Shown here: one piece after another, positions 29,089 to 33,878 of the stretch
How positions within the stretch are numbered: position 1 is the stretch's first letter
Layout: every line of letters starts with the position of its first letter
NCBI GenBank assembly: GCA_005888595.1
Contig: VBAL01000110.1
Span: 1 to 34,780 of the forward strand
DNA: 34,780 nt
Direction of reading: 5' to 3'
From: Candidatus Segetimicrobium genomatis
Lineage (GTDB): Bacteria > Sysuimicrobiota > Sysuimicrobiia > Sysuimicrobiales > Kaftiobacteriaceae
Made by a program: the position numbers and the translations under genes
Notes under the pieces: model-generated
Seen by the model: the letters and a program-made list of their open reading frames with translations, nothing else
The model's database searches: none
Told to the model about the DNA's origin: nothing

Positions 29089-29206
29089 AGTGAATAGTGA
29101 TTAGTGAATAGTGAATAGCTAAGACGTCCGGGCCGGCGGTGGCTATTCACTATTCACTATTCACCATTCACTATTCACGTTACCTATTCACTAATCACTA
29201 TTCAAC
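29089..29206. repeat. Inverted short-tandem-repeat dyad, 7-bp word (locus H)
   Basis: Left arm 29089-29119 repeats AGTGAAT about 4.5 times with few errors. Right arm 29142-29206 repeats the reverse complement (TATTCAC) about 8 times, with one break. The spacer is about 23 bp. It lies between the usher-like stop (29216) and the nfu-like start (29063). This is the most regular and AT-richest dyad. Confidence 0.9.
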
Positions 29207-29215
29207 AGACGTTTT

Positions 29216-31616
29216 CTACGGGAAGGTCCTCTTCTCGATGGGCTTCGTGCTCTGCAGTGGGATGTCCACGACGGCGAGTGCGCCAGGCTGAAGGACGAGG
29301 GTCACCCCACCGCCGTCCTTCGCCGTCAGGTCGGGAGGCAGGACGCGCTGATCCACGCCGACGCGATACTCGCCGGGCAGCAACTGAAGGAACTCGAAGA
29401 TTCCTGCTGAGTCGGTGTGGCGGGTATCCCCGGATGGCAACAGGGTCACTGCAACCCCTTCCAACACCTGCTCCCCGGGATCCCGCGCGCCGTTTCCATT
29501 CTCATCGATGAAAACGACCCCGCGTACGCCGGCAGCAGGGACCAGCGCGAACTCGATCCGGCTGGTCTCACCGGTCGCCACGAGTATCGTCTGCCGTGGC
29601 TGGGCAACCACCAGGCCGGCGGGAACCGTGGCTTCGTCGACGGCGACCCGGAAGCGGCCCTCGTGCACTCCGTCGAGGGCGATGCCGCCATCATCTCTCG
29701 AGATGGCAGCGCTGCGATCGTCCAGTGGCCTCGCGACGACCGTTCCCATTGCTATCGATGAAGACGAGTCCCTCCACTCGCCCGATGCGCGGGACCCCAT
29801 AGAGGTACAGCGGGAGACCGTACTGTAGCGTCAGGTACGACGTCGGGTTGGGATCCACCGAGGTGTATTTCAGTCCGGCGCCAAGCATGAGGGACGCCCC
29901 AGTCGGGAGCGGCGTGGCGAAGCCGATTTCAAAGGCGTTCTCCCAGGACGCGCTGGGCAGTGTGTATATTTTTTGACGCACAGTCGCGGTCAAGTCCAGG
30001 TTCGTGGCGAGGTGGAAACCCAGGCCCGCCGCCGTCGCCCATGCCTCGGTAGCGCCGGTCGACTGCGAGAGTTCAACCCACAACGGCAGCCCATTGTGGA
30101 GCGTGTAGCCGGCCCGCAGCGAGAACGTGGAGGTCGCAGACGATGTACCAGCCAGCAGATCGTCATTGTCCACATAACTGGCCCCCGCCACTACTCCCCA
30201 CCGGCCGATGGCATATGTCATGGCCATGGCCGCCGTGGTCGTTCGGATCCGCGTCCCGCCTGAGGTATCCTCGGTTGCGCGCAGTTCCGCGGTCAGCCCG
30301 ACCGCGTCGGAAGCGCGGTATCCTGTCAACAGACCGTAGGTGACGCGGTCCGGCAGTCCAGAGGACGCACCGCTCAGGACCGCGGCGCTGGTGAGCAACG
30401 ACCACTGCGGTGTCGGCTGGAAGCCCAGTTCAAGGAGCGGTCCGCTGCGGCCTGCAAACAACGACGCATTCCCGATCGTCGGGTAATCTGCAGACAACAC
30501 GACGTAGCTCAGCGACGTGGTGAGCGTAGGCGACGCACCGGTCAGTCCGAGGCGAAACGCTGATCCGGATCCCAACGGCGACGAGCCCATCGCGAGTTCA
30601 CCGAATGCGTTGAGGTCGCCAGCCGGATGTTCGACGCGCAGCTTCGTCAGGGTAGCCCCCGTGCCGGCATCGAAAAACGCTCCCGCTCCCATCAGCCACT
30701 CGCCCGACGCCGGCAACTTGACCGTGACACCGTAGACGGATCCTCCCCCGGTCAAGCTGCCGGCCACGATGCCGCTGTCATACCCTCCCACCGGACCCTC
30801 GTAGAGCCCCCCACTCACGCCTTGTTGGTACAGGGTCAGCGGTGAGTCGTCCAGGGCAAACGTACCCACCGTCAAGAGAGAGGTAAGGGTGCGTATCCGC
30901 ACCGTACCCGTGGCCCCGAGCGCGCCACTCTGCGCCGACATGACGATGATACCGTCGACGCGCTGCTCTCCTTCGTGCGTGGCGAACTGGAGCTGCGAAG
31001 CCGCCGACGTACCGGCAGCGCCACCCAGTGACAACCCCACACTCACGTAGCCCGATGCCACGAGAGGCGGCGAGGTGTCGGGTTTGAACTCTGGCTCAAA
31101 CGCCGGTTTCGGTGCCACCGGAGTGGGTGGGGGCACGGCCGCCACGGGTTTGGGGGGCGTCTCGGACCGGAATGCCTTCGGCGTGGTAATTTCCAAGACT
31201 CCTTCGCTCTCGCTCCACACCGTGAGCACGCCAAACACGGCTTCGACGATACCGCGCGGCACCATTGTCGTACCCGCGACGAGCCGCACCGGCGCCTCGG
31301 CCACCATCCATACCACACCGTCCGACCACACCTCCAGCCGGTCGAGGCGCAACAGAAACGTTCTGCCGCCGGCGCGCCGGAGTTCGATCGACTGTTTGTC
31401 GACGGTCAGCGTGGTTTGAAACTGCTGAGCGAGAGGACGCAGTGGGAGGTACAGCATGCCGTCGAGGACCACTGGCGCAGGCGTCAGCGGAAGTGGAACG
31501 TCGTCAACAACAACCCGGACCGGTGAGTCGGCCTGCGCCTGGGGCACTGCGGCGACGATGTACATCACGGCCGCCAAGACCACCCCCATCCCCTGCATCC
31601 AGCGCCTGGTCTCCAC
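29216..31616 (-). pseudogene. Usher-like outer-surface beta-barrel protein, frameshifted
   Basis: One protein split into two frames, 29691-31616 (641 residues) and 29216-29800. In the long frame: a signal peptide (about 1-30, ending AVPQAQA), a copper-amine-oxidase N-terminal-like domain (about 31-150, with VVLDGMLYLPLRPLAQQF and VPRGIVEAVFG), a Pro-rich linker, then about 420 residues of alternating Gly/Ser/Thr beta strands resembling an outer-membrane barrel. The beginning of an SdrD-B/carboxypeptidase-like repeat follows, VEGLVFIDSNGNGRRE. The second frame continues with LDDRSAAISRDDGG and a second repeat, VFIDENGNGARDPGEQVLEG. One base too many near 29726 explains the break. GTG at 31616 follows the chaperone-like stop by 15 bases; ATG 31598 is an alternative. 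Similarity to fimbrial ushers is architectural only. Confidence 0.6.
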
Positions 31617-31631
31617 GTCACGTTCCGCCCG

Positions 31632-32474
31632 TTACGGCTTGCGCGCGGTGAAGGCGATCTCACCGGCCACGAGCGCTGCGCCGCCGTAGTCGACCACCGC
31701 ACGCAGTGTGTAGGATCCCGGGCTCAATACGGCGGCCGCCCACGTGGCCTTGAACTCGCGCATACTCGACGGCAAAACCAGGGTGTCTGGCAACGCAATC
31801 TTGGAGACTTGCTGCCCGGCTGGATCCAGGACAAGGAGATAGCCGGTGGTGCGGACGTGGACGTTGCCGGTGTTCTTGAATACGACCTTGACGTCGGCGC
31901 CCTTTCCCCCGGGGAGAGGAGCGGCCACCATGCTGACGATGTCTCCATGCACATCCTCGGTGCCGTGGACTGGTACGAGAAGCTTAGCCGCCAGCTTCGG
32001 GACGATGACCGACACGGTACCGCCCACGACGCTGGTTTGCAGCACCGGAGTGGGTGAAACGACGATCACCGCGTACCGGCCTCCGCGGGCGTCGGCCGGC
32101 ACCGTCACAGTGATCCGGACCCGCATGGTGCGGGAAGGGTCGAGATCGAATTGGGCCGGTGTCACTTTGCTCAGCGCCACGGCCGACCAGGGCACGCTGC
32201 CCGGCGCAAGGACGTCCATTGTGCCGCTGGGGCGGATGAAGATGTCTTCGAGGCTAACGGTAAATCGGATGCGGCGTTCCGACTGATTGTACACGACCAG
32301 GATGCCGCTGGCCGTACCTCCCGGAGGCGGGACGAGTTCGATCTCTGCAGGACTGATGCCGTAGTGCAGCGGCTGCGCCACTAAGGGCGCACCTAGTGCG
32401 AAAAGGAGGAAGGCCGCGGCGAGCACCGCGGCCTTTGTGACGCACGATCCACGCACCGGCCTTCCCCACATCAT
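31632..32474 (-). CDS. Secreted chaperone-like protein (PapD/DUF916-like fold)
   Basis: About 280 residues. A signal peptide (AAVLAAAFLLFALGAPLVAQ, about 15-34) is followed by an N-terminal beta-sandwich opening ISPAEIELVPPPGGTASGIL with VVYNQSERRIRFTVSLEDI, the style of pilus chaperones and of DUF916/WxL-interacting proteins. A second beta domain (about 190-280) has VKVVFKNTGNVHVRTTG and PGSYTLRAVVDYGG. The frame is open to 32495 with a TTG, but ATG 32472-32474 after GAGAGGG is better. It sits between the small secreted subunit and the usher-like gene, the order subunit - chaperone - usher. The function is inferred from this order and fold pattern. Confidence 0.6.
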   Translation of the reverse strand: MMWGRPVRGSCVTKAAVLAAAFLLFALGAPLVAQPLHYGISPAEIELVPPPGGTASGILVVYNQSERRIRFTVSLEDIFIRPSGTMDVLAPGSVPWSAVALSKVTPAQFDLDPSRTMRVRITVTVPADARGGRYAVIVVSPTPVLQTSVVGGTVSVIVPKLAAKLLVPVHGTEDVHGDIVSMVAAPLPGGKGADVKVVFKNTGNVHVRTTGYLLVLDPAGQQVSKIALPDTLVLPSSMREFKATWAAAVLSPGSYTLRAVVDYGGAALVAGEIAFTARKP

Positions 32475-32539
32475 TGAACCCTCTCTTCCACGCAAGTCCT
32501 CAGGTCATGAGGACTCGCGCGGCGAATCTTCGCGGTCGC

Positions 32540-33043
32540 TTAAGGCTGGATCCCCAGGTACTCGACGACGATCGTGTACGTCGCCGGACTGTCCGAGTAG
32601 TCCACGCACTGCTGGTACGTCATCGACACGTCCACACCCGCGCCTGCGGTCTTCAGCTGGTTGGAACCATACAGGTTGGCGTATGAAGATGTGACGCTGG
32701 TGAACGAGGCCACATCGGCACCCTTATACTGGAAGGCGTTGTACATCTCCGTGGTGCCGTTCTTCGCCTTCCCGTTGGGATAGCCGACCGGCTCTGAGCG
32801 GATCTGCAGATTCCACGCTTTGTTGCTCTTCACGTTTACTGCGCTCGGCGTGCTGCTGCCGCAGCTGCCCGGCACCGTGGAACCGATCGACGCTGCCCCT
32901 GGCACGGTGATGTCGATCCCTGCCGCGGCAGCGACCGACACAGACGAGCTGCCACCCGGCGCACCGTATCCGGCGACGGCCATCACGACCGTCAGTAAGA
33001 ATCCCGCCAACACGACTCGTGTGAATCTCACACCCATGTCCAT
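32540..33043 (-). CDS. Small secreted beta-rich protein (pilin/coat-U/WxL-like subunit)
   Basis: 167 residues (ATG 33043, or ATG 33037 with AGGGG 9 bases upstream). A signal peptide (about 10-28, VVLAGFLLTVVMAVAGYGA) is followed by a Gly/Ser/Ala/Val stretch and a beta-rich domain with two cysteines, Cys61 (GSCGS) and Cys146 (YQQCVDY), likely a disulfide. The C-terminal strand SPATYTIVVEYLGIQP resembles the edge strand of pilin-like subunits. KAWNLQIRSEP (75-85) contains a W-x-L that recalls WxL proteins. Neither family can be confirmed from sequence alone. It is first of the putative fibre operon. A 7-bp hairpin lies in its leader (33072-33090). Confidence 0.6.
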   Translation of the reverse strand: MDMGVRFTRVVLAGFLLTVVMAVAGYGAPGGSSSVSVAAAAGIDITVPGAASIGSTVPGSCGSSTPSAVNVKSNKAWNLQIRSEPVGYPNGKAKNGTTEMYNAFQYKGADVASFTSVTSSYANLYGSNQLKTAGAGVDVSMTYQQCVDYSDSPATYTIVVEYLGIQP

Positions 33044-33071
33044 TGACCCCTAACGAAATCGAAGTGGTCTC

Positions 33072-33090
33072 CCCGGCGCCATTCGCCGGG
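33072..33090 (-). other. Leader hairpin of the secreted subunit gene
   Basis: CCCGGCG (33072-33078) and CGCCGGG (33084-33090) form a perfect 7-bp stem with a 5-base loop, about 30-45 bases upstream of the start at 33043 or 33037. No U-run follows, so termination is less likely than mRNA stabilisation or translational control. Confidence 0.45.
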
Positions 33091-33130
33091 CCCGACCCGA
33101 GGTATCTATCAAGCAAATACAGCAAGTTGT

Positions 33131-33226
33131 GTGCCGCCCCTAGCTGCCCGTCCGAAAGTCCCAGGGCCAGGCAAATCAGGTCAACTGGTAGGGGTTTGCC
33201 CGGCCCAGGCGACGACTAGACGGCAC
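33131..33226 (-). ncRNA. Candidate structured RNA with nested stems (unnamed)
   Basis: On the minus-strand transcript an outer stem GTGCCG/CGGCAC, extended by TAG/CTA (33216-33226 with 33131-33143), encloses a strong 12-bp hairpin (33195-33206 with 33164-33175, one G-U pair, 19-base loop with a small inner CAG/CTG stem) and a single-stranded segment containing GGGACTTTCGGAC. It lies between two genes on the same strand, about 110 bases after the pilin-like stop. It contains GGGCAAACC as found in c-di-GMP-I riboswitches, but the rest of that consensus is missing. It could be a regulatory leader or a processing signal. Confidence 0.35.
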
Positions 33227-33333
33227 TTCTTAATATGAAGGTGAGATCTGCTCAACCGGAGTCGCGAGGCGTAACCGGGAGGGAACCTTGTGTCTTAGGG
33301 TTGGTAACAAGGATACTCTCTATGACGGTGTGT

Positions 33334-33783
33334 CTACGGCGTGCTCTCTAGCCCTCCGCCAGGAGTGTACCGAATGTTTGCGCCGCCGTTGGCACTGTAG
33401 CATGGACCGCCGGTGCCACCGTTAGTCCAGTTTGTGCGCAGGACGTAGTCGGTCCCCGGGTTCCCGACAATGCTATACAGGTAGCCGCCCCCCATGCCGA
33501 ACACGACGCCCGTGCACGGGTCTCTTGGCAGCGACCGCGTGTAGTCAGGTTGGAGGCTGGTGGCCTGCTGCGGATACGCCGCGTTGTCTGCGAAGAAGCT
33601 CTCCAGCGCTGTGGCGACGTTCTTCATGTTGCCCTTGCTGGCCGCCACCTGCGACTGCGCCCTGGCCCTCAAGAAGTTCGGAATCAGGATCGCCGCCAGG
33701 ATGGCGATGATCGCCACGACAATGAGCAGCTCGATCAATGTGAAACCTCGGTTGTTGCGGAACCTCCGTGCAAACCGGCACAT
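33334..33783 (-). CDS. Type IV pilin-like/pseudopilin protein
   Basis: 149 residues. Seen: a short basic leader (MCRFARRFRNNRG) cleaved after Gly13, then FTLIELLIVVAIIAILAAI with Glu at mature position 5, the standard type III signal for a prepilin peptidase. The hydrophobic helix is followed by a PNFLRARAQSQVAASKGNMK helix, and the C-terminal half is a GspG-like beta region (AAYPQQATSLQPDYTRSLPRDPC) with two cysteines that may form a disulfide. It would need a PilD peptidase and an assembly platform that are outside the window. The start is ATG 33781-33783. It is in the same direction as the roadblock and sigma genes. Confidence 0.9.
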   Translation of the reverse strand: MCRFARRFRNNRGFTLIELLIVVAIIAILAAILIPNFLRARAQSQVAASKGNMKNVATALESFFADNAAYPQQATSLQPDYTRSLPRDPCTGVVFGMGGGYLYSIVGNPGTDYVLRTNWTNGGTGGPCYSANGGANIRYTPGGGLESTP

Positions 33784-33878
33784 CGGGTGTAGACCTCCCG
33801 ATGTCTAAAACAGCAACTCCTGTGCCGGGAGTGCAATCCTTGACGGGCGGGGGAGGTGGAAAAAGCTGCCGGGGACCG

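Follow-up and report, generated by a model that had tools for sequence, protein, structure and literature searches.

A gene trio of Candidatus Segetimicrobium genomatis that combines a WxLIP-like chaperone with a barrel protein of predicted usher-like layout

A 34,780-nucleotide stretch of DNA from Candidatus Segetimicrobium genomatis (assembly GCA_005888595.1, contig VBAL01000110.1, positions 1 to 34,780 of the forward strand), referred to here in its entirety as the window, carries on the minus strand, from 33043 to 29216, three tandem genes for secreted proteins in the order subunit, chaperone and large barrel protein. In this uncultured soil bacterium, the cassette probably serves to bring a protein to the cell surface along a route that resembles the chaperone-usher pathway and is not homologous to it by sequence. 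Judged from profile matches, its chaperone is distantly related to the WxLIP (DUF916) proteins, and its large protein is predicted to have the domain layout of an usher. Chaperone-usher systems belong to diderm bacteria, and WxL clusters to monoderms. A preliminary description of the locus had reported the same gene order and, as its central idea, a mixture of monoderm and diderm traits. The order holds, and so does the part of the idea that concerns a WxLIP-family chaperone and an usher-like barrel; no PapD or Usher sequence family is detectable.

The trio is genuine: it is conserved, and purifying selection acts on it. Profile searches with all three proteins over 43 genomes of Sysuimicrobiota, the name given to the CSP1-3 phylum (PMC11604079), recovered the chaperone, the subunit and the full-length barrel protein in the identical eight genomes. 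The subunit and the chaperone were found in none of the remaining 35, and barrel-profile matches in other genomes of the phylum fell almost only on a common stalk domain. Because the chromosomal settings differ between family f1, where the trio adjoins pyruvate-dehydrogenase-type (pdh) and sigma-factor genes, and family f3 (G011), where it adjoins EF-P/TlyA-like genes, the linkage is more than an inherited neighbourhood. The ratio of non-synonymous to synonymous substitution rates (dN/dS) between congeners is 0.17-0.34 for every gene. Relatives labelled 'Terrabacteria group bacterium ANGP1' and 'Armatimonadetes' are metagenome-assembled genomes (MAGs) that we take to be members of CSP1-3/Sysuimicrobiota. 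A trio nearly identical to that of the Sysuimicrobiota genome G002 was also seen on a contig labelled Acidobacteria (L022, QHWF01000462.1), which is probably a mis-binned Sysuimicrobiota contig.

The MAG that carries the window measures 2.94 Mb, is 87.8% complete and encodes an Omp85 protein (E 2.8e-31), on account of which the host is very probably diderm. No LptD match was found in this incomplete genome, and its outer membrane may do without standard lipopolysaccharide export. Sysuimicrobiota, Spirochaetota and Aerophobetota are taken as diderm, and the candidate phyla radiation (CPR), Actinomycetota and kin as monoderm; the Omp85 finding itself is for the genome of the window only.

The middle gene (31632-32474, minus strand) encodes a soluble two-domain WxLIP-like chaperone of about 280 aa, with no C-terminal transmembrane helix by transmembrane prediction. 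Its start is preferably placed at the ATG at 32474, the mechanically delimited open reading frame (ORF) beginning at a TTG at 32495. A contig scan of the genomes with the single chaperone sequence gave no match, nor did phmmer with the chaperone alone against the PDB, and Pfam yielded only sub-threshold Ig-like matches; with the chaperone alignment as query, 24 loci were recovered. A profile of 29 chaperone homologs matched the first Ig-like domain of EfmWxLIP1 of Enterococcus (PDB 9i25, 9i1y) with an E-value of 2.7e-8. Pfam WxLIP_PGBD (PF06030, formerly DUF916) was matched by 9 of the 29 family members, the window protein alone remaining unmatched, and DUF3324 (HBD, PF11797) by none of them. 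By sequence, then, the chaperone is a distant WxLIP relative, and homology to the solved EfmWxLIP1 implies an Ig-like fold. The 'PapD/DUF916-like' assignment made earlier is therefore borne out on its DUF916 side. Neither outcome that the preliminary description named as refuting its idea came about, a barrel being predicted and an immunoglobulin-like chaperone fold being implied by that homology. In WxLIP proteins a membrane helix accompanies two Ig-like domains, and insertion of a strand into the partner is predicted for those of Firmicutes, a hairpin completing the WxL sandwich (PMC10599100).

The membrane anchor was surveyed in 35 sampled chaperone homologs. A C-terminal membrane helix is present in all 19 relatives from CPR, Actinomycetota and kin, and in none of the 16 from Sysuimicrobiota, Spirochaetota and Aerophobetota. 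On the chaperone tree, its presence and absence require 3 changes, against 11.9 with shuffled labels. The anchor has thus been lost in the diderm versions of the chaperone and tracks the presumed envelope type, a simple and checkable pattern. Homologs in Nomurabacteria, Saccharibacteria, Doudnabacteria and Actinomycetota adjoin one or more secreted beta-rich proteins. CPR loci L024, L026 and L028-L031 are WxL-like clusters made up of a secreted beta-rich protein, a helix-anchored WxLIP-like protein, a second secreted protein and a fibronectin-type protein; no Pfam family was found in the secreted proteins scanned. Soluble WxLIP-like chaperones adjoin secretin genes in Aerophobetes (L023, 2-4907) and Spirochaetales (L040, 6192-7436).

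The gene for the large protein begins 15 nt beyond the chaperone gene on the minus strand. In all intact relatives this protein is a single ORF of about 800 aa, and in the window it is split between two minus-strand segments in different frames, 29691-31616 and 29216-29800. The first (641 aa) comprises a signal peptide, a stalk domain similar to the N-terminal domain of copper amine oxidase (CuAO-N) at residues 37-142 (31191-31508; Cu_amine_oxidN1, PF07833, E 6e-10), and a predicted 26-strand outer-membrane barrel, mapped approximately by alignment to 29799-31064 from residues 181-601 of the intact ortholog L019. The second, which ends in KRTFP, holds the rest of the first and the whole of the second of two SdrD_B/TTR-like sandwich domains (SdrD_B, PF17210, E 1e-10), and its product aligns to residues 633-807 of the barrel ortholog profile.

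Modelling of L019 with AlphaFold2 (AF2), on an alignment of six sequences, gave residues 168-600 a predicted local distance difference test (pLDDT) score of about 83. The model shows an N-terminal domain, 26 strands between residues 181 and 601 and then two C-terminal sandwich domains. The predicted layout thus has the architecture of an usher, in which a periplasmic N-domain and a large barrel are followed by two sandwich domains at the C-terminus, the quality of superposition being low. In a Foldseek comparison with the PDB, the first 11 matches (E 3.6e-19 to 8.1e-15) were all FimD/PapC usher chains from complexes, isolated usher pores ranged from 1e-11 to 7e-8, and the best non-usher barrel was OccK11 (1.9e-8). 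The stalk domain, the barrel and the SdrD-B-like repeats of the preliminary description were all recovered, the barrel by prediction in the ortholog. It had assigned the barrel and the repeats to one protein and overlooked the break between the two reading frames. The idea of the CuAO-N domain as a rare marker was also abandoned, since this domain matches proteins throughout the phylum and is neither rare nor diagnostic.

Outside Sysuimicrobiota, the Spirochaetales cluster L040 encodes a barrel with two C-terminal sandwich domains, two adjacent secreted beta proteins, a soluble WxLIP-like chaperone and a secretin, and the C-terminal third of its barrel protein matches the Sysuimicrobiota barrel profile (E 6.7e-9). 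The chaperone-barrel association therefore recurs beyond the phylum. Unlike the trio, L040 has a different N-terminal domain on the barrel, and a DUF4114 protein and the secretin gene lie in the cluster. Elsewhere in the phylum Spirochaetota, subunit-chaperone pairs have other kinds of proteins as neighbours, and the five loci read showed no such barrel.

The subunit (32540-33043, minus strand; 167 aa) has a signal peptide, an N-terminal extension with alternating hydrophobic residues (SSVSV) and a beta-sandwich of about 120 aa, as judged from the ORF, the alignment and a low-confidence AF2 model. Pfam and NCBIfam gave no usable match. Two cysteines, C61 and C146, are invariant, along with nine other columns, in all ten subunit sequences, which makes a C61-C146 disulfide plausible. 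The preliminary description had coupled a possible disulfide with a WxL-like tryptophan motif; the cysteine pair stands, and the motif fares less well, consisting of a single [WY]x[LM] site with W in six of ten rows, with the Pfam WxL domain (PF13731) found neither in the subunit nor in the 43 phylum genomes. Two subunit genes stand in tandem in the genus mates G001 and G002, and the chaperone-adjacent copy lacks the N-terminal extension GSQTVTV of the others; this paralog could, from its sequence, act as a tip subunit. The first G001 subunit gene (G001:C39:30596-31081) has an in-frame TGA within the match. With filters off, in a small set and with the signal peptide included, the subunit profile matched neighbours of chaperone homologs in Actinomycetota (2e-9) and Saccharibacteria (6e-8), which suggests kinship with them; against CPR subunits the hhalign probability was only 18%. 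Foldseek matches to CUB-like and enterotoxin C-domains were left unused as generic sandwiches (TM-score ≤0.45).

These features are best explained by a mechanism in which all three products would be exported to the periplasm, where the WxLIP-like chaperone, with its two Ig-like domains, would bind the small beta-sandwich subunit and supply, from the F-G hairpin of its first domain, the strand that completes the subunit fold. The large outer-membrane protein would then take the subunit over from the chaperone. The stalk domain and the two C-terminal SdrD_B/TTR-like domains of this large protein would face the periplasm, on the same side because an even strand number puts both barrel ends together, and the wide barrel would be the exit pore. 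Subunits, singly or joined through their N-terminal extensions, would then appear on the surface. Strand donation, polymerisation and export through the barrel are what we infer from the architecture, and a chaperone-usher-like mechanism argued in this way, from architecture and not from homology, appears to us an evenly balanced proposition.

Several results weigh against this mechanism. The L019 model draws on only six sequences, its N-terminal 167 residues are unreliable (pLDDT <50), and its barrel contains no inserted plug domain, the longest inter-strand gap being 370-386. Because its TM-scores to ushers are only 0.3-0.48, the usher match is, in this model, one of local structure and domain order without precise agreement in shape. 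Likewise, because the barrel alone matches ushers (1e-11 to 7e-8) scarcely better than OprD-type porins (2e-8), the usher specificity of the model derives largely from its domain layout. The Pfam Usher family (PF00577) was found neither in the barrel protein nor in the 43 phylum genomes, and hhalign of the barrel against FimD and EcpC was negative; a relation to these two by sequence was rejected. PapD_N was not found in the host's own genome, nor by Pfam in the chaperone and 28 aligned relatives. In a weak alignment, Arg89 and Tyr169 of EcpB, carboxylate-anchor residues of the archaic/alternative chaperone class (PMC4654587), have no conserved counterparts in the chaperone, and the Arg148 position is basic in part. 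Structure prediction of the proteins alone, as the preliminary description had advised, gave a barrel for the large protein and a poor model for the subunit: a sandwich of about eight strands with an unplaced N-terminus (pLDDT 62.6), for which Foldseek gave no match at E ≤0.001. Finally, the barrel gene of the window is itself frame-broken.

A possible, though rather unlikely, alternative is a diderm WxL-type surface complex, in which the WxLIP-like protein and the subunit would form a stable complex held at the outer membrane, with the barrel as anchor, no polymer and no export, and in which the stalk and sandwich domains would be docking or peptidoglycan-binding parts. The WxLIP homology of the chaperone agrees with such a complex, as do the monoderm WxLIP proteins, which remain with WxL and are proposed to bind peptidoglycan (PMC10599100), the anchored CPR and Actinomycetota homologs adjoining one or two secreted beta proteins, and the commonness of stalk domains in Sysuimicrobiota. 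Nevertheless, the chaperone here is soluble and without anchor, the barrel protein has an usher-like layout, and paralogs with and without the N-terminal extension suggest an ordered assembly. That the barrel should instead serve as a large porin or a transporter, carrying stalk and TTR-like domains and merely sharing its operon with a separate secreted subunit-chaperone pair, we regard as improbable. The near equality of OprD-type porins and ushers in barrel-only structural matches and the Spirochaetota-phylum pairs seen beside other proteins would be in keeping with it, but the exact co-occurrence of all three proteins in the same eight genomes, in an order kept in two chromosomal contexts, argues otherwise. 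Very improbable, in our view, is a truly homologous but distant chaperone-usher system, with a PapD-like chaperone and an usher diverged beyond sequence recognition, to which the usher matches by fold and an hhalign alignment of the chaperone profile to E. coli EcpB (score 25.7 over 159 aligned columns, the best of 60 shuffles reaching 18.8) would lend some credit, but against which stand a score of 22.4 for the unrelated control FimA, making the EcpB match weak, the anchor residues and plug that were not found, and the closer kinship to WxLIP. This weak match is too little to call the chaperone PapD-like, and the alignment does not show the anchor residues as kept.

Two known kinds of system come closest to the trio. 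With the WxL/WxLIP (DUF916-DUF3324) clusters of Firmicutes, the trio shares a chaperone related to WxLIP PGBD and a small secreted beta-sandwich encoded adjacent to it; it differs from them in having no transmembrane helix and no detectable DUF3324 or WxL domain, and in its diderm host and added outer-membrane barrel. Its subunit-chaperone-barrel gene order is that of ecpA-ecpB-ecpC of E. coli, of the alternative chaperone-usher class. Common to the trio and the chaperone-usher pathway are a soluble two-domain chaperone and a large protein with an N-domain, a large barrel and two C-terminal sandwiches, the top fold matches being FimD/PapC. Unlike that pathway, the trio has no Pfam PapD/Usher match, 26 predicted strands instead of 24 and no plug; SdrD_B/TTR and CuAO-N domains replace the usher domains, and the chaperone is of the WxLIP type.

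We tentatively propose that the trio represents a chaperone-usher-type pathway in its own right, belonging to diderm Terrabacteria and some Spirochaetota, in which a strand-donating pair like the monoderm WxLIP/WxL would have been joined with a barrel in the role of usher, although the chances seem somewhat against it. If this proposal is correct, monoderm and diderm strand-complementation systems would be evolutionarily connected, and a WxLIP-type chaperone working with an usher-shaped barrel would either add a third solution to the chaperone-usher and WxL systems or bridge the two. Whether the handling of surface proteins by strand complementation is ancestral and shared becomes testable, and the trio provides a surface-structure candidate in a phylum that is widespread and uncultured.

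The trio also belongs to a cassette (29205-33878), here including a type IV pilin-like gene, that has been exchanged, because proteins flanking it are 86-99% identical to those of the same-genus G001 (flanking DNA 90.7-95.0%), whereas the trio proteins are only 39-56% identical to their G001 counterparts. Similarity to G001 extends up to 29204 and resumes from 33878, positions that coincide with the end of the trio and with that of a roadblock gene, and on the chaperone tree the window chaperone lies nearer those of two other genera than those of its genus mates. This pattern suggests recombination in the flanks of a surface locus, and the exchange may be of the sort often seen for surface loci under selection.

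The frame break in the barrel gene, located by ortholog alignment and three-frame translation at 29720-29732 on the minus strand, with its junction near 29726, lies inside the first SdrD_B/TTR-like domain. About 32 nt, not a multiple of 3, are missing there relative to the orthologs, and the break reflects either a genuine lesion or faulty assembly. The barrel gene of the contig labelled Acidobacteria is likewise frame-broken, and lesions at the trio locus are seen in several MAGs.

The type IV pilin-like gene (33334-33783) lies upstream of the trio; the copy in G003 is 77% identical, and none was found at the corresponding place in G001. Just downstream of the trio, at 29100-29205, are inverted and tandem repeats of GAATAGTGAATAG, with three exact copies in the window where none is expected by chance, and these repeats occur in G001 as well.

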